DNA of 64,000 nucleotides from a virus: positions 1 through 64,000 of IMG/VR virus record IMGVR_UViG_3300009502_001749. One strand, written 5' to 3'. The notes under the pieces are model-generated. The model saw nothing but the letters and a program-made list of their open reading frames with translations. It ran no database searches and had not been told where the DNA came from. Made by a program: the position numbers and the translations under genes. Numbering within the stretch: the first letter of the stretch is position 1; every line of letters begins with the position of its first letter. Shown one piece after another: positions 1,362 to 19,698 of the stretch.

Positions 1362-1946
1362 ATGGAAGAACAGAAAAAAGTAGTAGAAAATAAACCAGTA
1401 GATTTTATTTCTAGACAACAGAGACGTCAGCAAGAAAGAGAAGATGAAAAATATAATAAAATGATGAAGAAACAATTAGCAGCAATGGCTACAAAAGGTG
1501 ATTTGATGATGTTAGTTGAAGCCTTTAATAAATTAAGAGATCGTTTATTTCAGATGGATATAATAAATTCAGCATTAGAAAAGATTATAATTAATAAAGG
1601 TTTAGCAACAAGAGATGAAATTATGGTAGCTGTTAAATGTGAAGCAGACAGAGCAATGAAAATGAAAGAAGTAAATGATGAAAAAGAAAATTATGAAAAG
1701 AGACTTGAGACTTGTTTGGAGTTTGATATTGATCCAAATTTTACTAGTGTTCCTTTACAGATTTTTCAGGATACTAATTTAACAGTTGATCAGAAAAGAG
1801 ATCTTGCCGTTAAATATAATTTAGAAACAGTTTTAGAAAAATTACCAAAAGAAGAAAGTAAAGAAGTAATTGAACAAAAAGAAAAGATTGTTAAATTGTT
1901 AGATGAAATTAAACCAAAGGAAGAAAAAGAAAAATGTTTGATTTAG
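1362..1946 (+). CDS. Helical protein of unknown function
   Basis: The frame runs from 1320, but the ATG at 1362 sits after GGAGGCG, giving 194 residues. The protein is rich in Lys, Glu and Gln and likely helical or coiled-coil through most of its length (QQRRQQEREDEKYNKMMKKQ). Its last codons overlap the start of the glycosyltransferase gene by 13 bases in another frame, which suggests coupling. I recognise no family. Confidence 0.65.
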   Translation: MEEQKKVVENKPVDFISRQQRRQQEREDEKYNKMMKKQLAAMATKGDLMMLVEAFNKLRDRLFQMDIINSALEKIIINKGLATRDEIMVAVKCEADRAMKMKEVNDEKENYEKRLETCLEFDIDPNFTSVPLQIFQDTNLTVDQKRDLAVKYNLETVLEKLPKEESKEVIEQKEKIVKLLDEIKPKEEKEKCLI

Positions 1947-4900
1947 TATTAGGTCATAGTAGTTTTTTGGGTCATACCGGGTATGCTCATCATTCAAGAG
2001 AATTTTTCACTGAATTAAATAAACGTATTCCAGTTCGTATTAGAAATTTTGCATATGTTGATAATCTTGATTATTTAACACAAATTCAAAAAGATATGGT
2101 GATTTATCAGAAGTGGAATAATGCACCATATGAAGTTGGAACACCTTTTGAAAGAAATCCAAAAGATAAGGTTATTAATATAATTCTTAATGAAACTAAT
2201 CATTATTATTATTATGATAAATATGATGGTCCAAAGATTGCATATAATGTTTGGGAGAGCACTCTACAACCAGAACAATTTTTTAAGAAGTTGTTAGAGT
2301 TTGATCAGCTCTGGGTTCCCACCACTTGGCAACGTGATTGTTCGATTGGACAAGGTTTTCCAGCGGCGCGAGTTAAAATTATTCCAGAAGGAATTGATGG
2401 AAATAAATTTTGTCCTGGTGAGAGTGATATAGATTTAACTCAACTCAGAAAGGAAGAATTCAATTTCGTTCTATTTGGTCGCTGGGATAATCGTAAATCA
2501 ACAACTGAAATTATTAGAGCTTTTTTAAATGAATTTAAAGTAGAAGAACCAGTTAATTTATATCTTCATATTGATAATCCTTGGGGAGAAAGAATAGATG
2601 GATTTAAAACAACTCAGGAACGTATGGTTCATTATGGTTTTGATCCAAAACATAAAAGACTTATACTTCTTCATGGACTTGAAAATGCAGATAAAGATGA
2701 TTTATATATTAATTATTTAAGAAATGCTAATTGTTTTGTAAGTTGTGCAAAAGCGGAAGGTTGGAATATTCCATTGATTCAAGGAATTTCTGTTGGTACT
2801 CCAACAATATCCTCAAATTATGGAGCTCAATTAGATTTTGCCGGTGAAGCATCTCATCTTGTAAACATAAAAAAATATGTAAAACCTTATAAAGTTTTTA
2901 TGCAAGATGATAATACACCAGGATTAGTTGCTCAACCTGACTATGAACATTTACAATTTGTAATGAGAGATATTTATAATAATTATAATCAGTATAAACA
3001 AAAAGCTTTAGAAGATTCTATAATCATTAGAGAGAAATTTAGTTGGGAGAAAGCAGCTGATAAAGCTATGGTAGCACTTGAAGAACTTTATCAAACTTGT
3101 TATCCACCAAGAAAGAGACTTAATATTGGTTGTGGTAATGATATTAAAGATGGATATATTAATATTGATGAATTTGTTGAAAATAATAGTATTACAAAAA
3201 TGAGTATGCTTAATTTAGATTTTGCCGGTAATTTTATTGATGAAATATATACATCACATTCTCTCGAACATTTTGGTAAAGATGGAGTAAAACAAGTTCT
3301 TAAAGAATGTTATAGGGTATTAAAAACAGATGGTATTCTTAAAATTGAAGTTCCTAATCTTGAAAAAGTTTTACAGAATTGGTTAGATACAAAAGAAGAA
3401 GATAGATGGGGATTTCCTTTAGATACTATTTTTGGTATTCAAGATAATCCAGGTGAGTTTCATAAAACAGGATTTACGAAACAACATTTAATAGATACTG
3501 TTAAACAGGCTGGATTTGATATTGATGAAATTAATGATGTATATAGTCATGCACAAGATTGTATTGAATTAAAAGCTCATAAAATTAATATTAGAGATAA
3601 TAGTGTTATTATAGTTGATTGTTATCCTGATACTGATGAAAAACAAGATCTTTTAGTTAAACAAATTATTTATCTTAAACAGTTTGGTATGCCGCTTTTA
3701 TTAACTACCCATTATTCAGATATACCGAGAGAAATTATTGACTTAGTTGATTATATTGTTTATGATAGAAAAAACATTTTAAGTGATGATAGTATTGATT
3801 TTTTCTTTGTTATGAAAGATTTTATTAAAATTAAAAGTAAAGTATCAAAGAAATATCATTCAGTTGCAGTTCACACAAATCTTAAAAATGCTTTAAAGTT
3901 TTGTAAAGATAAATTTAGATATGCACATTTTATAGAATATGATACAAGTGTTGATTTTTCAAAACATTTGCAGATAGCTGAAAAATCTTTATTTGATGTT
4001 AAAGCTTGTATGTATTCTTATGATGAAGAACAAAAAGGAATCAGACAAATTTCAAATGATAATTCTATTATTGGATTAATAACAAATCTTATGTCATTTG
4101 ATATTAAGTGGTTTGATGATAATCTTGCCGATGTAAATTCATGGGAAGAATATAAAAATATTACTTTAGAATCATCAAAGAAACTCAATAAATATACAGA
4201 TTTAATTTATGAAAATTGGATGTATGATTATTTTAAATCCAATAATTTACTTAAAAATATTGGTGTAATTGATAATGAAACAAAAAATAAAATAATCAAA
4301 GAAAGAAGTAAAATAGTATCAGGAAAATTTGAAGATGATAATCTTATTATTTTATTATCAGAAACAAATCAACATGATGTTCTTATATTTGCAATAAACG
4401 ATTATAAAGATCATAAAGTTGATTATAGATTTACATGTAATGGAAAAGTTACAGAAGGACAAGTACCAACAAATGGATTTGCATATTATGTTGCAAATAA
4501 AATAGACAAAGTTCAAGTTATGCTTGATACTAAAGTAACAGATTTAGAATTTGATTATACAAAATTATACAGTTTAACAACTAGATTTAAATTTGTTGAT
4601 GATAGAATTAAATGTTTTGAATGGACAGAAAATGATGATAATGGATTTACAGTTAAAAAAGATGTTCCAGTTAGTGTAAAATATCATTTTGTTGATGGAG
4701 CATTTGTTGAAATATTAGGAAATAATGAAGAATCAAAAGATTATACTGTTGAATTTATAGATCAAAATGATAATAATAAAATAATATTTTCAACAAATAT
4801 ATCACCTAATAATTGGACAAGACCTAATTTAAAATATTTTATAAACTGGAAAACCCTTGTAAAACATAAAAATAAAATAATATTTGAACATTTATATAAC

Positions 4901-5755
4901 GCAAAAGATAAAAGAATATTAATAAATATAGATAGCAAAGCTCTGGGTGACACTATTGCTTGGATGCCTTATCTTGATGAATTTAGAAAGAAACATGAAT
5001 GTAAAGTTATTGCAACAACATTTTGGAATACACTTTTTAAAGATACTTATCCAGAAATTGAATTTTTTGAACCTGGACAATCTTTTAAAGATTTATATGC
5101 ACAATATATTGTTGGTGTATTTGATGGTGATTATAATCATAATAAAATTCACTGGAGATCTGGTCCATTACAAAAAGTTGCTTCTGATATTCTTGGTTTA
5201 GATTATAAAGAAGTTATTCCAAAAATTTCAGTTGTTAAAAAAGAAAGAGAAATTAAAGAAAAGTATGTTGCTATATCACAACATAGTACTTTTCAATGTA
5301 AATTTTGGATACACGCTAAAGGATGGCAATTCATAATTGATTATTTGAATAGTATAGGATATAAAGTTGTAGTTGTATCTTTACAAAAACCATTAGATAT
5401 TATTAATGTTGTTGATTATACAGGAAGATCAATTCCAGACACTATTAATATTATTAAAAATTCAGAGTTTTTTATAGGAGTTAGCTCTGGTTTATCTTGG
5501 TTAGCTTGGGCATTAAACATTCCAACAATTTTAATTTCTGGTTATAGTTCTGAATGGGCTGAAATGAATGAAACGGAAAAAGCTATTAGAGTTATAAATA
5601 AAAATGTATGTAATAGTTGTTGGCAAGATATAAGTTTGCCAATAGATCGTGGTAATTTTAATTGGTGTCCTAGAAATAAAGATATGGAATGCACAAAAGA
5701 AATAACTTCACAGATGGTAATTGAAGCAATAGAAAAAATAAAGGATAAGAAATGA
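1934..5755 (+). CDS. Fusion: GT4 glycosyltransferase / SAM methyltransferase / TibC-like heptosyltransferase
   Basis: 1273 residues in at least three modules. Residues 1-390 look like a GT4 glycosyltransferase: FVLFGRWDNRKSTTEII and the donor-site pattern AEGWNIPLIQGISVGTP. Residues about 393-550 are a class I methyltransferase: LNIGCGNDIKDGYINID, then SHSLEHF and ECYRVLKTDGILKIEVPN. About 555-990 is a less clear region, possibly another sugar transferase plus a beta-rich domain. About 990-1273 matches the bacterial autotransporter heptosyltransferases (Aah/TibC, GT9 fold): INIDSKALGDTIAWMPYL, then GVSSGLSWLAWAL, then four cysteines (1226, 1229, 1245, 1253) in VCNSC and NWCP/ECTKEI contexts like the TibC iron site. 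Known TibC-type enzymes attach heptose to serines of adhesins. The next gene overlaps by ATGA. Confidence 0.85.
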   Translation: MFDLVLGHSSFLGHTGYAHHSREFFTELNKRIPVRIRNFAYVDNLDYLTQIQKDMVIYQKWNNAPYEVGTPFERNPKDKVINIILNETNHYYYYDKYDGPKIAYNVWESTLQPEQFFKKLLEFDQLWVPTTWQRDCSIGQGFPAARVKIIPEGIDGNKFCPGESDIDLTQLRKEEFNFVLFGRWDNRKSTTEIIRAFLNEFKVEEPVNLYLHIDNPWGERIDGFKTTQERMVHYGFDPKHKRLILLHGLENADKDDLYINYLRNANCFVSCAKAEGWNIPLIQGISVGTPTISSNYGAQLDFAGEASHLVNIKKYVKPYKVFMQDDNTPGLVAQPDYEHLQFVMRDIYNNYNQYKQKALEDSIIIREKFSWEKAADKAMVALEELYQTCYPPRKRLNIGCGNDIKDGYINIDEFVENNSITKMSMLNLDFAGNFIDEIYTSHSLEHFGKDGVKQVLKECYRVLKTDGILKIEVPNLEKVLQNWLDTKEEDRWGFPLDTIFGIQDNPGEFHKTGFTKQHLIDTVKQAGFDIDEINDVYSHAQDCIELKAHKINIRDNSVIIVDCYPDTDEKQDLLVKQIIYLKQFGMPLLLTTHYSDIPREIIDLVDYIVYDRKNILSDDSIDFFFVMKDFIKIKSKVSKKYHSVAVHTNLKNALKFCKDKFRYAHFIEYDTSVDFSKHLQIAEKSLFDVKACMYSYDEEQKGIRQISNDNSIIGLITNLMSFDIKWFDDNLADVNSWEEYKNITLESSKKLNKYTDLIYENWMYDYFKSNNLLKNIGVIDNETKNKIIKERSKIVSGKFEDDNLIILLSETNQHDVLIFAINDYKDHKVDYRFTCNGKVTEGQVPTNGFAYYVANKIDKVQVMLDTKVTDLEFDYTKLYSLTTRFKFVDDRIKCFEWTENDDNGFTVKKDVPVSVKYHFVDGAFVEILGNNEESKDYTVEFIDQNDNNKIIFSTNISPNNWTRPNLKYFINWKTLVKHKNKIIFEHLYNAKDKRILINIDSKALGDTIAWMPYLDEFRKKHECKVIATTFWNTLFKDTYPEIEFFEPGQSFKDLYAQYIVGVFDGDYNHNKIHWRSGPLQKVASDILGLDYKEVIPKISVVKKEREIKEKYVAISQHSTFQCKFWIHAKGWQFIIDYLNSIGYKVVVVSLQKPLDIINVVDYTGRSIPDTINIIKNSEFFIGVSSGLSWLAWALNIPTILISGYSSEWAEMNETEKAIRVINKNVCNSCWQDISLPIDRGNFNWCPRNKDMECTKEITSQMVIEAIEKIKDKK

Positions 5756-6180
5756 AAGAAGTAATAGTTATAACATCAGGATATTTTGATCCAATACATG
5801 TTGGACATTTAGAATGTTTAGAACTTGCTAAACAATTAGGAGATAAATTAATTGTAATTTTAAATTCTGATAAAGCTGCTATAAGAAAGAAGGGTTATTT
5901 TTTTATGCCTTCAGAAGAACGTGCTAAGATTCTTGCCGCTATTAAATATGTTGATATTGTTTGGAAATCTATTGATACAGATATGTCTGTTAAAGAATCA
6001 ATAAGAGATATTCATTCACATTTTAAAGATAATTATTTAATATTTGCAAAAGGTGGAGATGTATTTAAAGATAATATTATTGAAAAAGATTTATGTGAAG
6101 AATTAGGAATTAAAATTATTGATAGATTGGGTGAAAAAATCCAGTCAAGTTCAGAATTAGTTAAAAAGATAAAGAAATAG
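5752..6180 (+). CDS. Cytidylyltransferase-family nucleotidyltransferase (HldE-C/TagD-like)
   Basis: 142 residues. SGYFDPIHVGHLECLELAK carries the HxGH motif of the nucleotidyltransferase superfamily, and the C-terminus has the expected (here divergent) IQSSSELVKKI in place of the usual ISSS/T loop. The length and sequence resemble the adenylyltransferase half of HldE, which makes ADP-heptose, or glycerol-3-phosphate cytidylyltransferase (TagD). The ATGA overlap with the heptosyltransferase gene makes an activated-heptose role attractive, but the substrate is inferred. Confidence 0.82.
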   Translation: MKEVIVITSGYFDPIHVGHLECLELAKQLGDKLIVILNSDKAAIRKKGYFFMPSEERAKILAAIKYVDIVWKSIDTDMSVKESIRDIHSHFKDNYLIFAKGGDVFKDNIIEKDLCEELGIKIIDRLGEKIQSSSELVKKIKK

Positions 6181-6191
6181 AGTTTTATTTT

Positions 6192-6232
6192 AAAAGGTCA
6201 ATATCTTTAAATAATAAGATATTGACCTTTTT
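6192..6232 (+). terminator. Rho-independent terminator after the glycosylation operon
   Basis: A 15-base-pair perfect stem (AAAAGGTCAATATCT, right arm from 6217) with a loop of about ten bases, ending in a run of T. It closes the 5' enzyme operon. Confidence 0.85.
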
Positions 6233-6254
6233 AATTAAGGAGGGAAATATATTT

Positions 6255-6605
6255 ATGTCTGATTTTAAATATGAAGAAACTATGGAACAACCTTTTGTAA
6301 ATTTAGTTTTGGGAACAACTAATAATAATATTGTTATTGAAAATTATAAAAAGTTTAGAATAACTGGACCAACTGAAGAATTTACAATTTCAGGTATTAC
6401 TGGTGGAACAGATGGAAGAGAAATATTATTATATAATAGTGTAGCTTTTAAAATGACAATTAATAATGATAGTGCAAATTCAAGTGCAGCTAATAGAATT
6501 TTGACTTTATCTGGTGGAGATTTTCAAACAACAACAGTAGGTTCTGTGACTTTAATATATGATGGAGCTGCATCAAGATGGATTTTTAAAGGTAGTATAG
6601 CATAG
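6255..6605 (+). CDS. Small beta-rich virion protein
   Basis: The frame opens at 6222 but the ATG at 6255 follows AAGGAGGG (6237-6244), giving 116 residues. The C-terminal half (NRILTLSGGDFQTTT, then SVTLIYDGAASRWIFKGS) resembles a beta-structured module seen at the ends of many phage fibre and decoration proteins. It leads the structural operon that begins after the terminator. The exact role is unknown. Confidence 0.65.
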   Translation: MSDFKYEETMEQPFVNLVLGTTNNNIVIENYKKFRITGPTEEFTISGITGGTDGREILLYNSVAFKMTINNDSANSSAANRILTLSGGDFQTTTVGSVTLIYDGAASRWIFKGSIA

Positions 6606-6627
6606 TAATTAAAGGAGAGGTTAAATT

Positions 6628-7722
6628 ATGCCTAAATATTTGAATGAAGCAAGTTATCCAATTTTTTACGGTGGTACAACATTTGTACCTGGAAAACCAA
6701 TTGAAACATTAGATGTTATAAATAATGAAGCTTTTGTATTTGGAACAGTTGGAGAAACTTATGCTATAGTTGCTGGTGTGAATGATAGTTTGTTAATTAG
6801 ATTTAATAATGAGACTGTTTTGACAACAGTAACACTTACAGCTGGAGTAGCACAAACAATAGATAATGTTGTAACAGATATTAATACTGCCTATGGTTAT
6901 ACTGTTGCATATAATGAAGGTGGAAGACTTAAGATAGTTGCTCCAAAAAGAGAGTCTGATATATCTGCTGTTTGGATAGAAAATACTAATGGAACGGCAA
7001 ATGCTACATTGGGTTTAATCGGACATGATTGTAATCCATCTGGTTTAGTGGCAATAAAAGCTTTTATTAATTCAACAAAATTATCAACATTTAATATTAC
7101 AACTGCTAACAATAAATTCATTTTTAAATTTAATAGTGATGATTGGATAACAGTTACATTAACTGTTGGAGCGGCAAGAACTGCACAAGAAATTGCCGAT
7201 GAAATTAATACTGCATATAGAATTGCTACTGGAAAATTTGAAATTGTTGCAAAAGCTGTTGAACTCATAACTGGTGGTGGAGATATTGTATTACAATTAA
7301 TTTCACCAGTTGTTAGCAATTATACATCATCAGTTTTTATCAGAACATTAAACAATACAGCTCTTACAGTTCTTGGATTTGATAGTGATGATAAATTACC
7401 TTTAGTTAGTAATGGTTATCCACAACTAACTATGCAAGAGATCTTGCCGTTATATAATCCTCTTGTATCATACACATTATTAACTTTCCCTGGAGCTGGT
7501 CTTACAACTTTTTATACAAATGCTGGTGTTACTGCTTTTGAATTTATTAGAGTAACTGGTGCTGCTGTTAATATTTTCATTGAAGATGTTCATAATCTCC
7601 CACCTATTAATTTAGCAGTTGGTGAAAAGATAACTATTGAACATAAAATTGCAAGAATTAACAAATTTATATTTCAGTCTTTGGGAGCTGGTACAATTAC
7701 AATTTTGGAATTAAATAATTAA
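6628..7722 (+). CDS. Virion protein with two repeated beta/alpha modules
   Basis: 364 residues. Two internal modules of about 110 residues each have the same order: a strand pair, TVTLTAGVAQTIDNVVTDIN or TVTLTVGAARTAQEIADEIN, then strands and a C-terminal LGL/LGF. This layout recalls the IN-type motif of flagellin-like and fibre proteins. The last 90 residues are a separate beta-rich domain. GGAGAGG precedes the ATG. Probably a fibre, whisker or decoration protein. Confidence 0.65.
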   Translation: MPKYLNEASYPIFYGGTTFVPGKPIETLDVINNEAFVFGTVGETYAIVAGVNDSLLIRFNNETVLTTVTLTAGVAQTIDNVVTDINTAYGYTVAYNEGGRLKIVAPKRESDISAVWIENTNGTANATLGLIGHDCNPSGLVAIKAFINSTKLSTFNITTANNKFIFKFNSDDWITVTLTVGAARTAQEIADEINTAYRIATGKFEIVAKAVELITGGGDIVLQLISPVVSNYTSSVFIRTLNNTALTVLGFDSDDKLPLVSNGYPQLTMQEILPLYNPLVSYTLLTFPGAGLTTFYTNAGVTAFEFIRVTGAAVNIFIEDVHNLPPINLAVGEKITIEHKIARINKFIFQSLGAGTITILELNN

Positions 7723-7745
7723 TAGAATTTTGGAGGTTTATTAAT

Positions 7746-8528
7746 ATGGAAGATGAAAGAATTTATATTGGTAGAGGTATGGGAACATCTGGAACAAGTG
7801 GAACTGGAACTAGCGGAAGTTCTGGTACATCTGGAACAGGAATAACAAGCGGCAGTTCAGGAACATCTGGTTCTAGCGGTTCTTCTGGAAGTTCAGGCAC
7901 TTCTGGTTCTAGTGGAACATCTGGAAGTTCAGGATCATCAGGTTCTTCCGGAACATCAGCAACTTCTGTAACATCTGGTAGTTCTGGAACAAGTGGTAGC
8001 TCTGGAACAAGTGGTAGCTCTGGAACAAGTGGTTCTTCAGGCACTAGTGGTTCTTCAGGAACAAGTGGAGCAATAGGTACTGGTGGCAGTTCAGGAACAT
8101 CTGGTAGTAGCGGTTCTTCTGGAACATCTGCAACATCAGTAACATCAGGTTCTTCTGGGGCTAATGGTTCTTCTGGGGCTAATGGTTCTTCTGGTACAAG
8201 TGGAAGTTCTGGTACTTCAATTGTAAATATTAGTTTAAAATATTATGATTATGATCAAGCTGTTGCTGATGATGCATCTTTTGATCTTCCTGCAATTACA
8301 AATGTTGGAAATGGTTGGGTTATAGCTGGTCAGAATCAAGAAAGAAGTTGGTTTGTTGTAGGTCCAGTTGGTACAGTTACATTAATAAATAATACAACAA
8401 ATGTTATTGCCGGTGCAGATACAAATGGTAAATTTTGTATTGGAACAGCTGAATCTCAAGAACCATTAACAATTAAGAATAGACTTGGTTCATCTATGAA
8501 TGTAATGTTACAGATGTGGTATGATTAA
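7746..8528 (+). CDS. Gly-Ser-Thr repeat fibre-like protein
   Basis: 260 residues. Residues about 14-158 are an almost unbroken run of GSSGTSG-type units, and the remaining 100 residues are a compact beta-rich tail (NVGNGWVIAGQNQERSWFVV). Such flexible repeats are found in phage fibres and surface proteins. The high Ser/Thr content offers many potential O-glycosylation sites, notable because a TibC-like heptosyltransferase lies 2 kb upstream. Glycosylation is inference. GGAGG precedes the ATG. Confidence 0.75.
   Translation: MEDERIYIGRGMGTSGTSGTGTSGSSGTSGTGITSGSSGTSGSSGSSGSSGTSGSSGTSGSSGSSGSSGTSATSVTSGSSGTSGSSGTSGSSGTSGSSGTSGSSGTSGAIGTGGSSGTSGSSGSSGTSATSVTSGSSGANGSSGANGSSGTSGSSGTSIVNISLKYYDYDQAVADDASFDLPAITNVGNGWVIAGQNQERSWFVVGPVGTVTLINNTTNVIAGADTNGKFCIGTAESQEPLTIKNRLGSSMNVMLQMWYD
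7788..8220 (+). repeat. Degenerate GGA-AGT-TCT / GGA-ACA repeats coding GSSGTSG
   Basis: Tandem short DNA repeats coding Gly-Ser-Ser-Gly-Thr. Neighbouring copies differ in synonymous codons, but some blocks are exact (for example around 7990-8030, where AGTGGTAGCTCTGGAAC recurs). Such tracts can gain or lose units by slippage. Confidence 0.85.
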
Positions 8529-8546
8529 TTTTAGGAGGTTTTATTT

Positions 8547-9488
8547 ATGAATTTACCACCTTATGGAGATGATAATAAACGTGTATTAGCTCATTTTGGA
8601 GTTCTTAGGGTTTCTCCTCAAGATGTTCCAAGTATGACTGTGAAAGTTTCACCTGGAGGGTTCTGGTACTACACTAGTACTGGACCAGTATATACTGAAT
8701 TTGCTGGTGGTAATTCACCAACGATAAGTGCTCCAGGTACTAATGCAAAATGGGTAATGGTTGTTTTAAATTCTTCTTGTCAAATTGTTTTAATTGATGG
8801 TACCATTAGTTCACATCCTCAGATACCAACAATTCCAAGAGGAAGAATAATTCTCGCTGCAGTATATGTACAAACAGGAACAACAAAAATTACAAGCGAT
8901 ATAATTTTTGATGTTAGAACTTTATTTGCTCAATTTCCAACTGATCATAGAGATTTAGCTGGAACATCCGAGGTATCAGCACATCCAATATCTTCTATTA
9001 TTGATCTACAAACAACTTTAGACACATTAGTAACAGAAACAACTTTAGATTCAGAATTAGAATCTAAAGCTGATCAAACTGGTACTAATGAAACTTCTTT
9101 TATTTTAAATAAAGATTTTATTGGTACTCCTGCATCAAATGTTGAAATTTTAGTTGAAAGAGGTAGTGAATCTAATGTTGGTATTAAATGGAATGAAACT
9201 TTAGATCAATGGCAAGTTACTTCTGATGGAACAACTTGGAATACATTTGGTTCAGTTATGACAAGTGGATCTTCTGGAAGTTCCGGAACATCAGGTTCTA
9301 GCGGCACGAGTGGAAGTAGTGGAACATCTGGAAGTAGTGGAACATCTGGAAGTAGTGGAACATCTGGAAGTTCCGGAACAAGTGGTACATCTATGACCGG
9401 AGGAACTTCAGGAACATTTAGTATGACAAGTGGTGGAACAATTATTGTTCTTGATGGATTAGTTACGTCAATTTCAGGACCACCGTAA
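8547..9488 (+). CDS. Tail-fibre-type protein with C-terminal GSSGTSG tract
   Basis: 313 residues. The N-terminal 230 residues begin MNLPPYGDDNKRVLAHFGVL and are clearly related to the product of 9570-10463 (shared PPYGD, DHRDL, SHPIS, and KADQ-GTN segments). The central DHRDLAGTSEVSAHPIS is typical of fibre linkers. A GSSGTSG tract fills residues about 242-290, followed by a short hydrophobic end. Preceded by GGAGG. Likely a baseplate or fibre component; the paralogue pair probably arose by duplication. Confidence 0.72.
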   Translation: MNLPPYGDDNKRVLAHFGVLRVSPQDVPSMTVKVSPGGFWYYTSTGPVYTEFAGGNSPTISAPGTNAKWVMVVLNSSCQIVLIDGTISSHPQIPTIPRGRIILAAVYVQTGTTKITSDIIFDVRTLFAQFPTDHRDLAGTSEVSAHPISSIIDLQTTLDTLVTETTLDSELESKADQTGTNETSFILNKDFIGTPASNVEILVERGSESNVGIKWNETLDQWQVTSDGTTWNTFGSVMTSGSSGSSGTSGSSGTSGSSGTSGSSGTSGSSGTSGSSGTSGTSMTGGTSGTFSMTSGGTIIVLDGLVTSISGPP

Positions 9489-9511
9489 CATGATTATATA
9501 AAATAAATAAC

Positions 9512-9543
9512 ATCGGCAAGATCTGAAATAAAATCTTGCCGAT
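9512..9543. terminator. Hairpin of the ATCGGCAAGAT family (copy 1)
   Basis: ATCGGCAAGAT at 9512-9522 pairs perfectly with ATCTTGCCGAT at 9533-9543. It is one of six intergenic hairpins built from the same inverted 11-12 base unit. No long T run follows on the plus strand, so a simple rho-independent role is not certain. Confidence 0.7.
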
Positions 9544-9569
9544 AAAAATTTATATGGAGGTAAATTTTA

Positions 9570-10463
9570 ATGAATATTCCGCCTTATGGAGATAGTTATA
9601 AAAGAGTAGGAGCTTATTTTTCAAATCTACAAGTTTCAGCAAAATCAACACCAAATATGACAGTTAAAATATCAGCTGGTGGTTATTGGTATTATTCAGC
9701 AACAGGAGCTACATATGTAGAATATGTTGGCGGAAGTTCTCCAACTATTACAGCTCCAACAGGTACTGGTAATGCAAAGTGGGTTATTATAGCAATGGGA
9801 CCAAGTGGAGTTGTTTCCAATATTGATGGTGCAGCTGCTTCAAATCCTGTTTTACCAACGGTTCCTGGAAGAGCAAGAATACCTCTTGCTGCTATTTATA
9901 TTCAAACTGGAACAACAACAATTACAAATGATATGATTTATGATGTTAGACCAATGTTTCCATTGGAAGTAAGAGATCATAGAGATTTAGAAGGATTAAC
10001 ATCAACAGGTTCACATCCAATTTCTGCAATCTCAAATCTTACTGAGACTATTGCTAATCTTGTTACATCTTCAGCATTAACAACACTTCTTGCCGATAAA
10101 GCAGATCAAGATGGAACAAATGATACTACTTTTACTTTAAATAAAGATTATAGTGGTGCTCCTGCTTCAGATTGTTTATTTGAAGTTGAAAGAGGTAGTG
10201 GTGATAATGTTGGTATTAAATGGCATGAAGATATATCAAAGTGGCAATTTACTGATGATGGAACAAATTGGATAAATTTTGGAGATCTTTTTATAAATAC
10301 AGGAACACAAGAATTGAATATGTTAGTATATTCACAGAATGCAGAACCAACTTTGACAGTTGGAAATGTAGCGTTATGGATAGATACTAACAATTCAGAT
10401 AAAGTGTATTTGATTTATAGTAGGGGCTCTGCAGATCAAGTAAAAGTTGAATTAACTCAGTAA
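9570..10463 (+). CDS. Tail-fibre-type protein, paralogue of the preceding gene
   Basis: 297 residues beginning MNIPPYGDSYKRVGAYFSNL. It aligns along about 230 residues with the 8547-9488 product (SPTITAP, RIPLAAIYIQTGTTTIT, DHRDLEG, SHPIS, NKDYSGAP). Here the C-terminus lacks the Gly-Ser repeats and ends in a short domain with VGNVALWIDTNNSDKVYLIY. Preceded by a hairpin of the TTGCCG family and GGAGG. Confidence 0.72.
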   Translation: MNIPPYGDSYKRVGAYFSNLQVSAKSTPNMTVKISAGGYWYYSATGATYVEYVGGSSPTITAPTGTGNAKWVIIAMGPSGVVSNIDGAAASNPVLPTVPGRARIPLAAIYIQTGTTTITNDMIYDVRPMFPLEVRDHRDLEGLTSTGSHPISAISNLTETIANLVTSSALTTLLADKADQDGTNDTTFTLNKDYSGAPASDCLFEVERGSGDNVGIKWHEDISKWQFTDDGTNWINFGDLFINTGTQELNMLVYSQNAEPTLTVGNVALWIDTNNSDKVYLIYSRGSADQVKVELTQ

Positions 10464-10615
10464 AAGTTCTTATTGACTACACATTAATTTTGTAAACCCT
10501 TTACATTTTTTTAGTCAGGTTTAGACACATAACTATATTTATAGAAAGGTAAATGTGGTTATGATGTCGTAAATCTGATTATAGAGTTAAATAAGATTAG
10601 AGAGGAGATCTAATT
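10464..10615 (+). promoter_or_regulatory. 152-base intergenic region with possible promoter
   Basis: No gene. It contains AAACCCTTTAC (10495 onward) and TTTATAGAAAG near 10538-10548, the latter like the ATATAGAAAT elements. An AAACCCTTTTAAC element also occurs in the gap at 62962-63120. This would give the inserted endonuclease its own promoter. Confidence 0.3.
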
Positions 10616-11308
10616 ATGGCTAATCAAGAAATTGATAGTTTATCAAAATCTTGTTCAATTTCAGGTTGTACTGGTAAATATAAAGCTAAAGGGTTTTGCG
10701 GAAGACATTTACAACAAATTTATAAATATGGAGAAATTATAAACATTGGAAGAAGTAAATTAGATTCTAATGAAATTATTATAGAAAATAATATAGCTAA
10801 AATGAAATTATATGATCATAATGGAAATCAAATTGAAGAGACTATTTTTGATTCTAAATATGTTAATATCATATCACAATATAAATGGCATTTATTTACA
10901 TCAACAAAATATGTTGGTGGTGGTTGGAAAGATAATGATGTTTGGAAAGATATGTTATTACATAGATTTTTATTATATTTAGAAGATGGAAAATTTGATA
11001 CTGAAGTTGATCATAAAGATGGAAATAGATTAAATAATTTAATTAGTAATTTACGTAGATGTACTATTCAACAAAATAATCAAAATGCTAAGAAAACATC
11101 AAAAATAACATCTAGTAAATATAAAGGTGTTAATTTTTCTACGTATCATATGAAATTTAAAGCTTCCATTTCCGTTAATAAAATAAGTATATATTTAGGA
11201 ATTTTTTCATCAGAAATTGATGCAGCTAAAGCTTATAATGAAGCTGCTATAAAATATTTTGGTGAGTTTGCTTGGTTAAATAAATTTGAAGAGGTGAATC
11301 AATTATGA
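10616..11308 (+). CDS. Free-standing HNH homing endonuclease with AP2 DNA-binding domain
   Basis: 230 residues. An N-terminal Cys-rich finger (SISGCTGKYKAKGFCGRH) is followed by an HNH nuclease core (LLHRFLLY, then VDHKDGNRLNNLISNLRRC, then QNNQNA) and a C-terminal AP2 domain (SSKYKGVNFS, then SVNKISIYLGIFSSEIDAAK and YNEAAIKYFGEFAWLN). This layout is typical of mobile phage endonucleases. It sits between structural genes; its stop overlaps the ATG of 11305 (ATGA). Confidence 0.9.
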   Translation: MANQEIDSLSKSCSISGCTGKYKAKGFCGRHLQQIYKYGEIINIGRSKLDSNEIIIENNIAKMKLYDHNGNQIEETIFDSKYVNIISQYKWHLFTSTKYVGGGWKDNDVWKDMLLHRFLLYLEDGKFDTEVDHKDGNRLNNLISNLRRCTIQQNNQNAKKTSKITSSKYKGVNFSTYHMKFKASISVNKISIYLGIFSSEIDAAKAYNEAAIKYFGEFAWLNKFEEVNQL

Positions 11309-11646
11309 GTAATCAATTTAAAGTTCAGGAAGCTGTGACCTTCTCACAGCAATCTCCACCTGAAACATTTAGACTTATGGATGTAACAATTCAAATCGTT
11401 CCTGTTGCATATGAACATGGAATGGTTATAGCTGAGAGTGAAGTTGTTGATCTTGAAGTTGCTGGAGAAGTTAATATCTTTATTTTAAATTGTGCTTCTG
11501 GGGTGAGTTTAAAGATAGGAAGTACAACAAACCCAGCGTTAACCAATGTTACACATTTTTCATATCAAGGAGCTAAAACAAGTTTTTATGTTTCTAATGC
11601 TGGAACAGAAGATATTACTATTAGTTTTGCTACTGCTAGTATCTAA
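11305..11646 (+). CDS. Small beta-rich virion protein
   Basis: 113 residues, mostly beta-strand (VEVAGEV-like and SFYVSNAGTEDITISFA segments) without cysteine pairs or catalytic motifs. The style matches small head or tail decoration proteins. Its ribosome site (GAAGAGGTG) lies inside the upstream endonuclease gene, which suggests that the endonuclease was inserted just before an existing structural gene. Function unknown. Confidence 0.6.
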   Translation: MSNQFKVQEAVTFSQQSPPETFRLMDVTIQIVPVAYEHGMVIAESEVVDLEVAGEVNIFILNCASGVSLKIGSTTNPALTNVTHFSYQGAKTSFYVSNAGTEDITISFATASI

Positions 11647-11656
11647 AGAGGTAATA

Positions 11657-11860
11657 ATGATTAGTATAAGTTATTTATTTGAGAATCCAAATGTACAATC
11701 AGAACATCCAAGTGGACTTGTTGCTCCATTTGGAAGTTATAATCCGAGAAAAGATAATGATGATAGATTAGCAAAGTTACAAGATCTGAATAAATTTTCT
11801 CCGGATCAACAAACTAAAAGATTACGTGATGTTGGAGTTAATATTAATGATTTCATGTAA
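11657..11860 (+). CDS. Small protein with MISISYLFE leader
   Basis: The long frame opens at 11546, but the ATG at 11657 follows AAAGAGGT and yields MISISYLFENPNVQSEHPSG, the shared leader. The mature part would be 58 residues, with no known domain; its end resembles a small helical segment (TKRLRDVGVNINDF). Inferred packaged protein. Confidence 0.72.
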   Translation: MISISYLFENPNVQSEHPSGLVAPFGSYNPRKDNDDRLAKLQDLNKFSPDQQTKRLRDVGVNINDFM

Positions 11861-11873
11861 TTAAGGAAAGATT

Positions 11874-13502
11874 ATGCTGATACACAATTTTTATGCTGAC
11901 TTATTACTTTCAGTAAGAGTTTTATTTGATAATTTTATATTTCAGAATGATCAATATATAAAAAGATATGAATTCAATGTGGGTAATAGAAGCTTTCAGA
12001 TGCCTAAAGATTTTAAAACACAATTTGAATTTCCAAATGTTATAGCAACTATTAATGATGAAATGCCAGCGTTTGGTCAACGTCCAGATGTATCACAAAC
12101 TATTTCTGGTTATAATGTTGATCAGGTTCCAGTTTTGTATAATTCAACAAATGAAAATGTTTTATATCTTCAGGAAGAACTTGTAACAGTTCCAATCTCT
12201 ATAATAATAAATTGTGAATCACCATTACAAGCAAAAGAAGTTGGAAATGTTATAAGACGATGGCTACCTTATAATAAGTTTATTCAATTTTTGGAGTATA
12301 CTTCATTTTTAGAAATTTCAAAACCATTTCTTGCCGATAATGGTTTTGATTTTAATAGTGATAACATTTCAAATCTTTATACAAAATTAAATCATCGCGA
12401 TGGTGAAATTTATAATTGTTTTTCAGTACAATATAAACCTTTTATTAGAATGGATGGTGTAGGCTCAACAATTCCAGATTCAACTCAAAGATCTTTTCAA
12501 GTGAGTGTTGATTTAACTTATATGGTTCAATTTCCTTTATGGCTTTTTAGTAACATAAAAGAAGGAACTATTGAAAGAATTGATATTGCTTTTAATATGG
12601 GTACTTTTGAGACTATAGCTGATTATCCATCGGCAAAATTAGTAAATCAATCTCTTAGTACAGTTCTTAATTTGAGAAAAGGTTATATACGAAGAAATTA
12701 TTTAGTTTATGATAATAATTCAACTGAAAATATTATCATGTTGGATAATTTATTATTAGATGTTAATATGGTAACGGCAAAAACATCAAAGTTAGAAGCA
12801 ACAAGAAAAGCTACAAATTTTGTTTATATAACTGTTAATGGAGATGAAACCTGCCGATATAAAGCAAACACTAATAATCTACCAATTGATGGTTTAACAA
12901 TTCCAATAGATGCTGATTATTATTTAATAGTTACAAGTGATGATTATGGAAATTTAAATATTGGGTATAGAAAGAAAGGAAAAGATTTAGTTATTCAATT
13001 TAGTAAAGATGATTTTATAATAGAACCAAGATATACATATAATTTACTTTGTAGATCTACAAGAATAATAAATTTTTTAGAATATCAACTAGATACCAAT
13101 TTAAATTATGTAACATTTTCAATTTCTGAAAGTTTATGGGCAAGTCTTTCTCCATCATTAACAAGTCCATTAATAGTTCAATTTTATGATGATGATTTTG
13201 AACAATCACATCAATATGGTGGAATAGCACCAGTATTAAACAATATTAAAGTAGCTCAAAAAAGTTCAAGTTCTGCAACTATTACATGGACATCTAGTTC
13301 TGAAACAACAACTTGTGTTGAATATGGACCAACTGCAGAATATGGATACTTTTCAGAAATTAAAACAGATTATGTACAAACACATAATTCAATAATTTAT
13401 TCTTTACAACCTTTTACTTTTTATCATTATCGAATTAATACAACTGATATTGATGGAAATGAAATTATATCTGATAATTATACATTTACAACAAGTCCTT
13501 AG
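11874..13502 (+). CDS. Virion protein with C-terminal fibronectin type III domain
   Basis: 542 residues. The first 430 residues are a structural protein I do not recognise (FRSFQMPKDF-like, then VPISIIINCESPLQAKEVGN and QRSFQVSVDLTYMVQFPLWL). Residues about 445-542 form a fibronectin type III domain (SATITWTSSSETTTCVEYG ... LQPFTFYHYRINTTDIDGNE). Such domains often decorate phage tails or baseplates and bind cell-surface sugars. No strong ribosome site; AAGGAAAG is near. Confidence 0.68.
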   Translation: MLIHNFYADLLLSVRVLFDNFIFQNDQYIKRYEFNVGNRSFQMPKDFKTQFEFPNVIATINDEMPAFGQRPDVSQTISGYNVDQVPVLYNSTNENVLYLQEELVTVPISIIINCESPLQAKEVGNVIRRWLPYNKFIQFLEYTSFLEISKPFLADNGFDFNSDNISNLYTKLNHRDGEIYNCFSVQYKPFIRMDGVGSTIPDSTQRSFQVSVDLTYMVQFPLWLFSNIKEGTIERIDIAFNMGTFETIADYPSAKLVNQSLSTVLNLRKGYIRRNYLVYDNNSTENIIMLDNLLLDVNMVTAKTSKLEATRKATNFVYITVNGDETCRYKANTNNLPIDGLTIPIDADYYLIVTSDDYGNLNIGYRKKGKDLVIQFSKDDFIIEPRYTYNLLCRSTRIINFLEYQLDTNLNYVTFSISESLWASLSPSLTSPLIVQFYDDDFEQSHQYGGIAPVLNNIKVAQKSSSSATITWTSSSETTTCVEYGPTAEYGYFSEIKTDYVQTHNSIIYSLQPFTFYHYRINTTDIDGNEIISDNYTFTTSP

Positions 13503-13513
13503 GGAGGAAGTTT

Positions 13514-13774
13514 ATGGTTTCGATTGTTATGGAGTTTGATTTTGGTGAAGCAGGTGAAAATATTATAGGTGGAGTTAAAAAATTAGGAACAGGAGTAGGT
13601 CAAGCAATTGGAACTGGAACTGGATATGTTGGACAAGGGTTACAGAAACTTGGTCAATATGCTCAAGAAGGTGGACAATTAATAAAAAGAAATCCATTAA
13701 CATCTACAGCAATTTTAGGTGGAGCTGCTATTGGTGGTGGAATTATGGCGAAAAGGAGAAAACAAAGTTTTTAG
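13514..13774 (+). CDS. Small Gly-rich protein with hydrophobic C-terminus
   Basis: 86 residues. Begins MVSIVMEFDFGEAGENI (a variant of the leader) and ends NPLTSTAILGGAAIGGGIMA followed by KRRKQSF: a Gly/Ala-rich hydrophobic helix and a basic tail. This two-part plan recurs in the next genes. GGGAGG precedes ATG. Possible head-packaged, membrane-active protein; inferred. Confidence 0.7.
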   Translation: MVSIVMEFDFGEAGENIIGGVKKLGTGVGQAIGTGTGYVGQGLQKLGQYAQEGGQLIKRNPLTSTAILGGAAIGGGIMAKRRKQSF

Positions 13775-13782
13775 GAGTTATT

Positions 13783-14211
13783 ATGATATCTATAATTTAT
13801 GAATTTTTAGGATTTCAATCTTATAATGATTATAAAAGAGAACGAGCTGAAAAAGGAAGAGAATCTTTAAGTAATGATATAAATGAAAAAATCGCAGAGA
13901 GAGAACAAAAAATTGCAGAAAAAACAAATTTAACAAAGAAATTTAATGATGATAAAGATGTTATGAATTCACATTTAAAGTCTGGAAAGATTACACAACA
14001 GGAACATGCAGAATATTTAAAACAACATAAAAGTCTAAAAAAATCTGCAGGAATAATTGATGATGTTCCTTCAACACCAAAACCATCTGGAGGAATTACA
14101 GACGCTATTTCTGATCATCCAATATTAGCTGGTGCCGCTGGAGCACTTGGTGTTGGATTAATTGCTAAAAAATTAATAGATAATAAAAATAGAAAACCAC
14201 AATATGCTTAA
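13783..14211 (+). CDS. Small protein: leader, helical body, Ala/Gly helix, basic tail
   Basis: 142 residues. Begins MISIIYEFLGFQSYNDYKRE; then a Lys/Glu helix and HLKSGKITQQEHAEYLKQHK, like a SHOCT-type short helix pair; ends HPILAGAAGALGVGLIAKKL with a basic tail. It lies 9 bases after the previous gene. The same plan as its neighbours suggests a common job. Confidence 0.7.
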   Translation: MISIIYEFLGFQSYNDYKRERAEKGRESLSNDINEKIAEREQKIAEKTNLTKKFNDDKDVMNSHLKSGKITQQEHAEYLKQHKSLKKSAGIIDDVPSTPKPSGGITDAISDHPILAGAAGALGVGLIAKKLIDNKNRKPQYA

Positions 14212-16632: not shown

Positions 16633-17973
16633 TTAATTATTTATCATTATTTGTGAGATGTTGGTATAACTTGAATCGAATGATATTAATTTTCCACCTT
16701 TTGTTATAATGAAAGTTAAAGGAATATTATTTCTGATCCAATTATAATCTTTGTAATAACTACCAATATCAGAATACATGTCTGTTAAACTTATAACCAT
16801 ACTTAATTCATCTTTATTTTTATCCCAGTATTCTTTTTCAACAAATTCAAAAACATATCTATGAGATGTTCCACCACGACCTTGATAACCTTCTTTTTTG
16901 AGGAACTCATAGAACATGTTAATATTTTCTAAATTAAATATTTTCTGTTGATGAATTTGTACATCATGTGTAATTAAATGAATTTCTTTAAAAAATCTCA
17001 TACTATTTTCTACTACATTTGAAAATTGTTTAAGATTTTTATCAGAAATTGAACCAGATGTATCTACAAATATTATTAATGTTCCAACACCTTCAATATC
17101 TTCTGTAAGAGAATATCCTGGAAGTATTAAACCATGTGGGATATATATTTTATTTAAATTTCTCCATGATCTATCATCTGGTTTCATAATAATATTTGTT
17201 TTAATTGATTTTTCAACTAGACGTTCCCAAGGAATTTCTACTTTTAAAAGTTCTTCTAAATAAGTAGTTAAATATCCTGGTAAGTCACCTTTTGATTTTA
17301 TTGTTTCAAAAACAGCTCTTGCTTCAGAAATTAATTGATTGAGCTGATAAATGGCTTCTGGAGAATCAGTCATATCTTCTTTTTCAGATTGTGAAAGATC
17401 ATCTGTCATTTCAAATAATATATTTCCATTTTGATCTTTTACAACTATTGTATCTGGACTATCTCCATCTCCCAATTCAACTTCAATCTCAATAAATTTT
17501 TCATTTTTTACTAACCAATCATATGCTTTTTCTACAGAACAATTAGGCTCTTCTGATTCTAATCTTTCTACGATATTGTATCTATTTTGATATGGTTTTA
17601 TAAGATGAGATAAATTTTTTCTAAGGTAAACTTCAATAACATGATCTGCTGCAACACACCAAATTTTATGGATTCTATCATCTTTTCTTAATCCATGTCT
17701 ATTTAGTATGTGTAGAAGTTCATGACAAAGAAGATATACTAAATGTATAAAAGTATAATCTAATTTATTTAAATAAATTTCATTTAAATGAATCTTGCCG
17801 CTCTCAATGGTTGATAAATCTTTTTCATTAAATACAACATATCCTTCCATTGACGGATGAAATTCATAAACTGTCCAATCAAATCTATGAAGCATCATAC
17901 CGAAAAAGATTAATTCTTTTGTGAATAATTTTATTTTACTTAATTTAATTAACTCATTAATTTTTGGAGTCAT
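16633..17973 (-). CDS. VWA-like protein with N-terminal metallopeptidase domain (DUF2201 type)
   Basis: 446 residues. The N-terminal domain holds CHELLHILNRHG (His84, Glu85, His88, His93), a zinc-metallopeptidase motif. The C-terminal part from about residue 300 holds FVDTSGSIS, the MIDAS-type DxSxS of von Willebrand A-like domains. This pairing matches the putative metallopeptidase/VWA proteins that work with MoxR-family ATPases. It follows the AAA+ gene on the same strand with a 3-base gap, so the two form one operon. Substrate unknown; a chaperone-like or protein-remodelling role is inferred. Confidence 0.82.
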   Translation of the reverse strand: MTPKINELIKLSKIKLFTKELIFFGMMLHRFDWTVYEFHPSMEGYVVFNEKDLSTIESGKIHLNEIYLNKLDYTFIHLVYLLCHELLHILNRHGLRKDDRIHKIWCVAADHVIEVYLRKNLSHLIKPYQNRYNIVERLESEEPNCSVEKAYDWLVKNEKFIEIEVELGDGDSPDTIVVKDQNGNILFEMTDDLSQSEKEDMTDSPEAIYQLNQLISEARAVFETIKSKGDLPGYLTTYLEELLKVEIPWERLVEKSIKTNIIMKPDDRSWRNLNKIYIPHGLILPGYSLTEDIEGVGTLIIFVDTSGSISDKNLKQFSNVVENSMRFFKEIHLITHDVQIHQQKIFNLENINMFYEFLKKEGYQGRGGTSHRYVFEFVEKEYWDKNKDELSMVISLTDMYSDIGSYYKDYNWIRNNIPLTFIITKGGKLISFDSSYTNISQIMINN

Positions 17974-17976
17974 TAT

Positions 17977-19218
17977 TTATACACCAGACATTAATTGATT
18001 GATTTCGTTTACTGATGATAAAATTTCTGTAGATCTGGAAGGATCAATTTTTTGAATTTCCATCAATATTTTAACAACAATATTTTTCTTATTTAATGTT
18101 TTTTCTAATTGTTTCATTTCTTTGAGCATCATAATAGAAAGTTCAGGTGCATGTATCATAAAAAGATCAATCAAATATGCTAAATTTTGTGTATATTTAG
18201 ATCTATCTTCTTTACCAATATAATTTGTTATTAATGCGTATGCTAAAGCATATCTTTTAACTGCATCGTTTGGAAGTTCATAATTTGTAGCATCCATTAA
18301 AATAGTGTCGATATCAAATTCTGAATAAACTTTATAATAAAGTACAAAGTCGCTTGCTCCTTCTTTTCCAACATAACCTGTTCCAAGATAAGAACATATG
18401 TCTGAAGAAATTGTTTTATTGTACCACTGTTCTCTTATTGCAAGTTCTCTGGCAAAACGAGTCCAAGATCTTGGAGATCCCCAAGCTTGATCGACTTGTT
18501 CTTCTTCATGGAAATATTTTCTATATTGATTATGTCCAAGAAATGAAATAACTGATGGATGAACATTTGTACCTTCTGTTAAAGCATAATTAGTTTTCCA
18601 ACCGTCAAAATCCGTATAAACTGGCATCATAACACATCTGTTAATGATAGCACTAAATATTGTTTTAGCACCTGATTTGTTAGATGTATTTCCTGCCATA
18701 ACAATTGCAACATTTGATGGAAGTTTATAACCTCTCAATGTGCGTTCTGTTAAAAGTTCATACAAAAGAGCCATGTGAACTGGACTTAAAAGATGTGAAT
18801 CATCAAGTAACCAAATAGTAAGTTTTGGTTCATCTTTTATTTCTTCTTCACCTTTTGCATTTTTTACTTTTACTTTTTTAGTTTCACTTGCTAGATAATA
18901 CAATGCTTTCATAATATCTGGAAAAGACCAAATTGTTCCAAGCATTGGTTTTCCATTTATTATGATATTTTCAAATTGTGGGATACCACCTGTTTCTTCA
19001 AGTGGCTTTAATGCTAAATGTGTAGATAAAACTCCAAAATTATATTGTGTACTTAAATAATGTAAGCTTGCTGTTTTTCCACCGCCTGGCGCACCACAAA
19101 TAAAAGGTGTACCAACATCATAACCACGTACTTGTAGATAACAATTTTCAACTACAAGACTAACGACTTCATGTAAAGCCTTTGCTCCTTTTGTAAACTG
19201 TTCATTATCTGTTAACAT
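17977..19218 (-). CDS. MoxR-like AAA+ ATPase
   Basis: 413 residues. Walker A GAPGGGKT at 42-49, Walker B LTIWLLDD at 133-140, and a sensor-1-like AGNTSN at 175-180. Domain order and size match MoxR-type AAA+ proteins, which are usually encoded beside VWA proteins, as here. TAAGGAGG precedes the ATG on the minus strand. With the 16633 gene it makes the only minus-strand unit in the window, expressed from the divergent promoter region at 19219-19314. Confidence 0.85.
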   Translation of the reverse strand: MLTDNEQFTKGAKALHEVVSLVVENCYLQVRGYDVGTPFICGAPGGGKTASLHYLSTQYNFGVLSTHLALKPLEETGGIPQFENIIINGKPMLGTIWSFPDIMKALYYLASETKKVKVKNAKGEEEIKDEPKLTIWLLDDSHLLSPVHMALLYELLTERTLRGYKLPSNVAIVMAGNTSNKSGAKTIFSAIINRCVMMPVYTDFDGWKTNYALTEGTNVHPSVISFLGHNQYRKYFHEEEQVDQAWGSPRSWTRFARELAIREQWYNKTISSDICSYLGTGYVGKEGASDFVLYYKVYSEFDIDTILMDATNYELPNDAVKRYALAYALITNYIGKEDRSKYTQNLAYLIDLFMIHAPELSIMMLKEMKQLEKTLNKKNIVVKILMEIQKIDPSRSTEILSSVNEINQLMSGV

Positions 19219-19266
19219 TATGCCTCCTTAGGTTTTTTATGAAACAAAAATAATTATAACATTATT

Positions 19267-19276
19267 ATTTCTATAT
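19267..19276 (-). promoter_or_regulatory. Candidate promoter ATATAGAAAT, minus strand
   Basis: Read on the minus strand, ATATAGAAAT lies 49 bases upstream of the AAA+ gene start. It overlaps the plus-strand element at 19272-19281; together they form the near-palindrome ATTTCTATATGAAAT. Confidence 0.5.
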
Positions 19277-19281
19277 GAAAT
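19272..19281 (+). promoter_or_regulatory. Candidate promoter TATATGAAAT, plus strand
   Basis: A one-base variant of the ATATAGAAAT family, 34 bases upstream of the 19315 start and overlapping the minus-strand element. Confidence 0.4.
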
Positions 19282-19314
19282 GTTTGAAAACTAAATTTTT
19301 AGAGGGTTAATAGG

Positions 19315-19686: not shown

Positions 19687-19698
19687 GAGTTTTGGTAT

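Follow-up and report, generated by a model that had tools for sequence, protein, structure and literature searches.

A phage-encoded BAHT-type heptosyltransferase domain beside collagen-like tail-fibre genes: a likely O-glycosylation system for the phage particle

The open reading frame at 1934..5755 encodes a glycan-assembly protein of 1273 aa with several domains: GT4, methyltransferase, GT-A-like and, as sequence and structure comparison shows, a full BAHT-type heptosyltransferase. That it is active, with which sugar and at which sites, is inferred. The window, the whole stretch of DNA analysed, comprises 64,000 nt of the 87.8 kb viral record IMGVR_UViG_3300009502_001749, and all window features given below lie on the + strand. 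As the BAHT-matching enzyme stands beside collagen-like fibres and heptose-making genes are found in the same record, the phage probably sugar-coats its own particles, and the locus is likely to be a phage-borne protein O-glycosylation system; no transfer was measured. A first-pass annotation had noted here a TibC-like enzyme, a nucleotidyltransferase and Ser/Thr repeat proteins and had proposed such a system. Its observation was right and understated, and its interpretation is supported.

The heptosyltransferase domain and its fusion partners

The BAHT (TibC/Aah-type) O-heptosyltransferase domain (residues 910–1269, 4661..5740) scored 287.5 bits against TIGR04414, well over the curated equivalog cut-off of 200, which was also exceeded in 44/44 scanned viral records. 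In phmmer, the TibC structures 4rb4 and 4rap match residues 912–1269 (1.6e-54 and 3e-54, respectively). A comparison with the TibC structure, proposed in the first-pass annotation, was run with an AlphaFold2 model of the domain (pLDDT 92.5) and gave a TM of 0.87 (E 4.9e-38) to 4rap, versus 0.52 for the next fold, WaaF. The N-terminal β-barrel of TibC is present, and the domain spans about 903–1273; the limits of 990–1273 first assigned to it were too short. The four-cysteine iron-site pattern held at its exact positions: C1226, C1229, C1245 and C1253 (iron finger, 5609..5692) align with TibC C339, C342, C358 and C370 (TibC numbering from PMC4358343). The catalytic base Asp110 corresponds to D1006, and the donor residues Thr226, Lys230 and Trp305 to T1119, K1123 and W1189. 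The iron cysteines and the equivalents of Asp110, Lys230 and Trp305, seven residues in all, are kept in 84/84 compared viral homologues, and the cysteines also in 42/43 genome homologues. The TibC-like call is thus supported by the equivalog threshold, the structure comparison and the active-site residues. There is no sign of a decayed gene, the frame being open and the catalytic residues retained.

Two features depart from TibC. The adenine-contact residue Arg286 is replaced by Thr1170, and arginine occupies this position in only 21/84 viral homologues, so the ADP specificity of the phage enzyme is not assured; since it is found in just 31/43 genome homologues, Arg286 is not invariant across the wider BAHT family either. 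The thumb, a β-hairpin involved in the TibC dodecamer, is a 23-residue segment in the phage protein, about 8–9 residues shorter than in TibC (mostly 32 residues in genome homologues, 21–36 in viral ones). With the TibC-type thumb shortened, the ring of twelve and the recognition of a β-helix may be absent.

Two alternatives raised with the original proposal bear on these results. The enzyme's target could be LPS or an adhesin on the host cell, for instance as a defence against superinfection: ADP-heptose is the donor for the LPS inner core, there is a distant GT9 relation to WaaC/WaaF, and phage glycosyltransferases that alter the host serotype exist (PMC12619734). However, the β-barrel and iron finger are BAHT-specific, the TM to WaaF is low, the models for LPS heptosyltransferases scored far below their cut-offs (17 versus 185 and 16 versus 170 bits), and the gene sits in a region of tail genes. 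Identity as LPS heptosyltransferase I–III was rejected on family scores and fold, and the host-surface reading as a whole is very unlikely. Glycosyltransferases also act on the DNA of other phages (PMC12619734), but modification of phage DNA can be almost ruled out here, as BAHT is a family of protein serine transferases, the gene lies in the tail region, and bacterial BAHTs pair with secreted-type Gly-X-Y proteins.

The same polypeptide carries a GT4 (GT-B) glycosyltransferase domain (residues 43–385, 2060..3088; phrog_2170, 6.7e-21; PF00534, 22.5 bits, below its cut-off) and a SAM methyltransferase domain (residues about 395–535, 3116..3538; PF08241, 30.7 bits, cut-off 21.2). Both had been recognised earlier and are confirmed; that they build and cap a glycan remains inferred. 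A further domain, missed in the first-pass annotation, is GT-A-like (residues about 557–780) and, taken together with a β-rich tail, spans residues 536–905 (3539..4648). Its AlphaFold2 model (pLDDT 81.4) matched GT-A-fold nucleotide-sugar enzymes in Foldseek with a probability of 1.00 and a TM of only about 0.35, and an EYD-like motif is conserved (alignment, n=14); it is inferred to be a third glycosyltransferase. Relatives are encoded in at least 565 viral stretches. The protein is 71% identical over its full length in the nearest relative, L002, and BAHT fusions of varied architecture occur in many other phages.

Collagen-like neighbours as probable acceptors

Downstream of the enzyme, virion-type repeat proteins had been reported, which held. 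The protein at 7746..8528 is a collagen-like (Gly-Ser/Thr-Ser)n protein of tail-fibre type (Pfam Collagen, 52.7 bits; PHROG tail fibre families), with its main tracts at 7851–8219 and serine at the Y position in 28/31 triplets. A second such protein follows at 8547..9488 (Pfam Collagen, 27.8 bits), with a tract at 9267–9392 in which all 14/14 triplets have serine at Y; its N-terminal domain is 76% identical in L002, and the tracts do not align. Antisense 'VPELPLVPELP' frames across the repeats were discarded as reading-frame shadows of the GTSG repeats, not genes. No autotransporter model was found among the scanned window neighbours that could provide a classical acceptor, the neighbours being these Gly-X-Y proteins. 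The published BAHT acceptors are β-helical autotransporters, not Gly-X-Y tracts, which speaks against the acceptor proposal.

Both proteins are probable acceptors, a role supported by genomic association in phages and, separately, in bacteria, the transfer itself being inferred. Of the fused viral BAHT genes, 29/39 have a Ser/Thr-rich Gly-X-Y gene no more than 9 kb away, as against 0/35 terminase controls (p 2.9e-12), the controls being drawn from other phage lineages than most of the fused loci. Across whole records, Collagen Pfam matches were found in 36/44 with a BAHT and in 0/12 BAHT-free ones of the terminase set. Chance proximity was rejected by these two controls. In several phages (L016, L059 and others) the BAHT gene stands directly between two Gly-X-Y fibre genes, and things are similarly arranged in Mel-JY01, a Microcystis phage whose deposited record names the host. 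Nine bacterial contigs contain a stand-alone BAHT gene with a Gly-X-Y tract at most 2.5 kb away, and none of the six inspected has a phage module. In a quick tree, which gave long-branch warnings and from which only the main split and label counts were used, all 36 tract-associated enzymes fell on one side (36/101, versus 0/26 on the autotransporter-type side).

Tail genes and the genes that modify tails may lie together for unrelated reasons, which weakens the argument from association. A related alternative is that the enzyme glycosylates another virion component, such as the capsid, the tail tube or another fibre domain, and that the Gly-X-Y genes are mere neighbours in the tail module. In its favour, known glycosylation of phage virions concerns the capsid and tail tube (PMC12363180, PMC12619734), the stand-alone 386-aa phage BAHTs have tracts nearby in just 6/27 cases, and some BAHT-containing records lack any Collagen match. 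The nine bacterial pairs, with no phage module in the six inspected, and the phages with a BAHT gene between two Gly-X-Y genes argue against it, and we consider it unlikely.

Genes for an activated heptose

The 142-aa nucleotidyltransferase at 5752..6180 overlaps the preceding frame by ATGA at 5752. Its earlier assignment as HldE-C/TagD-like held as a call to the RfaE-domain-II/TagD superfamily (PF01467, 58.4 bits). HldE-C identity was not reached (TIGR02199, 77.7 bits, cut-off 181.5), the TagD model scored 55.5 bits, and the best matches among solved structures (PDB) are CTP enzymes, the ethanolamine-P and glycerol-3-P cytidylyltransferases; no nucleotidyltransferase gene stands beside the BAHT gene of L002. 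On these three grounds (score below the heptose equivalog cut-off, CTP-enzyme matches, no counterpart in L002) it was rejected as a proven heptose adenylyltransferase, and its supply of an activated sugar is only plausible. In favour of a heptose supply across phages, the nucleotidyltransferase was present at 6/9 BAHT-containing versus 0/71 BAHT-free terminase loci (Fisher p 2.8e-7), and the BAHT gene is followed by adenylyltransferase-like and kinase-like genes at 9/80 viral loci.

Two other genes of the record strengthen the case for heptose. Outside the window, a D,D-heptose-7-P kinase is encoded at 86816–87763 of the record (TIGR02198, 349.8 bits, cut-off 345). The record also encodes a GmhB-like phosphatase, whose top two matches are GmhB models, both below their cut-offs (NF006506, 157.2 bits versus 178; TIGR00213, 147.9 versus 149.6). 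No match to a GmhA isomerase turned up in the 87.8 kb of the record, whose end lies 73 nt beyond the kinase gene; the 285-kb genome of the nearest relative has a GmhA domain at the corresponding place, within a complete ADP-heptose set (GmhA/HldE-N/GmhB/HldE-C).

The proposed system and its relation to known ones

In the proposed system, the BAHT domain would transfer D,D-heptose from ADP-heptose onto serines, most likely the Y-position serine of Gly-(Ser/Thr)-Ser triplets in the phage's own tail fibres, in the cytoplasm and ahead of tail assembly. The remaining glycosyltransferase domains would extend this first sugar, the methyltransferase would cap or decorate the glycan, and the coat may shield or stiffen the fibre shafts. 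The predicted site is supported by comparison with TibA, whose modified serines were reported in N-S-G and T-S-A contexts (PMC4358343); the phage repeats offer T/S-S-G.

The phage domain shares with TibC/TibA and AAH/AIDA-I (TIGR04414; Yao et al. 2014, PMC4358343) the β-barrel and GT-B catalytic fold, the iron finger, the catalytic Asp, Lys and Trp, and a partner gene nearby. Unlike them, it is encoded by a virus and fused to GT4, methyltransferase and GT-A-like domains, its thumb is shorter, Arg286 is replaced, and its partner is a collagen-like tract instead of an autotransporter. A self-contained phage protein-glycosylation route was new to the first-pass annotation; virion glycosylation as such is already known in mycobacteriophages (Freeman et al. 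2023, via PMC12363180, PMC12619734), where phage-encoded glycosyltransferases also modify virion proteins, although the reported targets are the capsid and tail tube. Glycans on a bacterial collagen-like region are found in BclA of Bacillus anthracis and other glycoproteins (cited in PMC3368898). BclA is modified at Thr in GPT triplets with a different sugar, and is not a phage protein. The prophage fibres EPclA/B also have Gly-X-Y tracts, but with Pro-rich triplets, and the recombinant protein was found unglycosylated (PMC3368898). No description of the pairing of a phage heptosyltransferase with a collagen-like fibre was found in the literature searched (phage with heptosyltransferase or virion glycosylation), and self-coating of this kind has probably not been described before.

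A bolder reading is offered tentatively, since as a joint claim it is less likely than not. The native acceptor of the phage-type BAHT clade would be collagen-like tracts of (Gly-Ser/Thr-Ser)n, with full sugar-making and a multidomain glycan-assembly line in phages; triple-helical tail fibres poor in proline would be coated, and perhaps stabilised, by short methylated heptose-based glycans, which replace hydroxyproline, and free-living gammaproteobacteria would apply the same enzyme–substrate pair to secreted proteins.

If the proposed phage system holds, the protein O-heptosyltransferase family known from pathogen adhesins would have hundreds of members in viruses as well, and would gain a new type of acceptor, the Ser/Thr-rich Gly-X-Y tract, which is found in many phage tails and, to our knowledge, is not known to be modified. 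It would also explain why phages carry ADP-heptose genes.

The multidomain protein and its terminal domain

The 1273-residue product of 1934–5755 (plus strand) contains, in order, a GT4 domain, a methyltransferase, a GT-A-like region and a domain of the autotransporter-heptosyltransferase (BAHT; TibC/Aah type) family, and is 71% identical over its full length to its counterpart in the nearest relative, L002 (285 kb). The GT4 domain (residues 43–385) matches phrog_2170 (6.7e-21) and the second domain the SAM methyltransferase family PF08241 (30.7 bits, cut-off 21.2). The following 370-residue region gives no convincing match to any family at the cut-offs applied; its predicted model (pLDDT 81.4) resembles GT-A nucleotide-sugar enzymes (Foldseek probability 1.00, TM only ~0.35). 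The last domain scores 287.5 bits against the TIGR04414 equivalog (cut-off 200), the product matches TibC at 1.6e-54 in a search of PDB sequences, and the domain model, beta-barrel included, gives a TM of 0.87 to TibC versus 0.52 to WaaF. Among the functional residues described for TibC (PMC4358343), Asp110, Thr226, Lys230 and Trp305 correspond to D1006, T1119, K1123 and W1189, and the iron cysteines to C1226, C1229, C1245 and C1253; the Asp, Lys, Trp and four cysteines are invariant in 84 of 84 viral homologues compared. The phage protein differs from TibC at the adenine contact Arg286, which is Thr1170, and in a thumb segment about eight residues shorter. By score, fold and residues, the domain belongs to the BAHT family, as the first-pass annotation had proposed from the cysteine pattern.

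A profile scan of viral contigs returned at least 565 confirmed relatives, 80 of which were retained for study; Microcystis phage Mel-JY01 is among the named carriers, as are uncultured huge phages 636 and 735 kb in length. Multidomain architectures, with variable extra GT-like and methyltransferase-like regions, occur in many of the viral homologues. L002 encodes two distinct BAHT proteins (24–1679 and 7301–11116), the first with a methyltransferase-like region at its C-terminus. Bacterial and archaeal assemblies contributed 43 further loci, part of them likely viral contigs.

Sugar supply

The nucleotidyltransferase gene (142 residues, starting at 5752) shares an ATGA overlap with the 1934–5755 ORF. 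The first-pass annotation saw in it a possible source of activated sugar; since it is only 34% identical to the HldE-C-like domain of L002, and its closest PDB matches are CTP enzymes, that role is no more than plausible. The record from which the window takes the first 64 kb is 87,836 bases long. Towards its far end, on the minus strand, it encodes a GmhB-like phosphatase (86033–86524; 157.2 bits, cut-off 178) and a heptose-7-P kinase (86816–87763; TIGR02198 349.8 bits, cut-off 345), and it ends 73 nt past the kinase gene. In L002 the gene order matches, and the genes there cover each of the four steps that start from sedoheptulose-7-P: one for a GmhB-like protein, one for a kinase (348.6 bits) and one for an HldE-C-like domain fused to a GmhA-like domain, with the GmhB, GmhA and HldE-C domains scoring below full cut-offs. 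The BAHT gene is directly followed by adenylyltransferase-like and kinase-like genes in 9 of 80 other viral loci. Among terminase-anchored loci, a nucleotidyltransferase occurs in 6/9 with BAHT versus 0/71 without (Fisher 2.8e-7).

Gly-X-Y tracts as candidate acceptors

Downstream of the nucleotidyltransferase lie two collagen-like Gly-X-Y proteins (7746–8528 and 8547–9488). Of the 45 triplets in their tracts, 42 have Ser at Y and 42 have Ser or Thr at X; GTS and GSS are the commonest among 7488 viral triplets. TibA is reported to be modified at Ser313 (QNSGG) and Ser322 (NTSAA), contexts which, as inferred from these two sites only, resemble the T/S-S-G of the phage repeat. Fibre domains flanking the tracts are 76–82% identical to those of L002 and the tracts themselves do not align, as expected if composition, not exact sequence, is kept.

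Tracts (at least 8 triplets, >30% Ser/Thr) were counted within 9 kb in loci with at least 9 kb examined. They accompany fused viral BAHT in 29/39 loci, stand-alone viral BAHT in 6/27 and terminase-anchored controls in 0/35 (fused versus control, p 2.9e-12). Over whole records, Pfam Collagen is found in 36/44 with BAHT versus 0/12 BAHT-negative members of the terminase set (p 2.3e-7). Gly-X-Y fibre genes directly flank the BAHT gene on both sides in two loci (L016, L059) and one immediately follows it in three (L037, L043, L083). Conversely, 119 viral stretches (~1 Mb) retrieved by a DNA pattern for Gly-[Ser/Thr]-[Ser/Thr] repeats include 8 with a BAHT gene and 6 with a GT4-like gene, the latter absent from 80 terminase loci. 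Most of the fused loci belong to phage lineages other than those of the controls, and the contigs are fragmentary.

The bacterial BAHT–tract pairing is a second, separate line of association evidence. In 9/43 genome loci the BAHT gene has a tract no more than 2.5 kb away (194 kb examined), and in one locus a tract is found farther off (229 kb examined). In the 6 of these 9 that were read, annotatable neighbours look like bacterial housekeeping rather than phage genes; the start of the tract protein there usually resembles that of a secreted protein or lipoprotein. In a BAHT tree (quick method, SH-aLRT support), one side (support 98) is made up of 26 bacterial members, among them Caballeronia and Selenomonadaceae, and the other of 101 viral and bacterial sequences; tract-associated members (within 5 kb) number 0/26 and 36/101, respectively (p 6e-5). 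The only annotated neighbour on the former side, in Acetobacter, reads like an AIDA-type passenger.

Stand-alone BAHT adjoins a Gly-Thr-Ser/Gly-Ser-Ser repeat protein, secreted-type in most, on gammaproteobacterial-type contigs, including methanotrophs (L090, L092, L096, L099 and L101, ~4.8–8 kb; L100, ~3.5–4.9 kb). L088 and L097, BAHT-bearing contigs binned as archaeal (Nitrosotalea, Pacearchaeota), are probably misbinned viruses, because L088 has tracts and a phage-type fusion. An 886-residue L002 fibre protein (17201–19861) consists mostly of Gly-X-Y tracts far longer than the window's, a tract expansion between close relatives. In Mel-JY01 (L003), a Gly-X-Y region (9152–9986) reads in two overlapping frames, possibly because the repeat was missequenced or contains a frameshift. 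In the window, 6222–6605 resembles the C-terminal end of an 872-residue L002 fibre (11192–13810) and may be a shortened fibre gene; 9570–10463 is apparently a paralogue of the 8547 protein that shares its N-terminal region and lacks a Gly-X-Y tract, which would make it a natural negative control for glycosylation; and 10616–11308, within the tail region, is an HNH/AP2-type homing-endonuclease-like gene, with similar ones in L002 and L136.

Proposed route and its novelty

BAHT enzymes were already known, and so was the glycosylation of phage virions. No description of phage-encoded BAHT enzymes or of collagen-like acceptors for them was found in the literature searched, an absence which is not proof. 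Prophage collagen fibres, as a contrasting case, have Pro-rich triplets and were reported to be unglycosylated as recombinant protein (PMC3368898).

In the proposed route, the sugar would first be activated, by genes that are present and whose activity is inferred. Heptose would then be transferred to Ser, a step for which fold and residues are shown and the acceptor is inferred from genomic association. Elongation by the GT4 and GT-A-like domains, and methylation, are inferred from domain fusion only. Candidate benefits of such a glycan, as yet without supporting data, would be shielding, stiffening, triple-helix stabilisation and adsorption.
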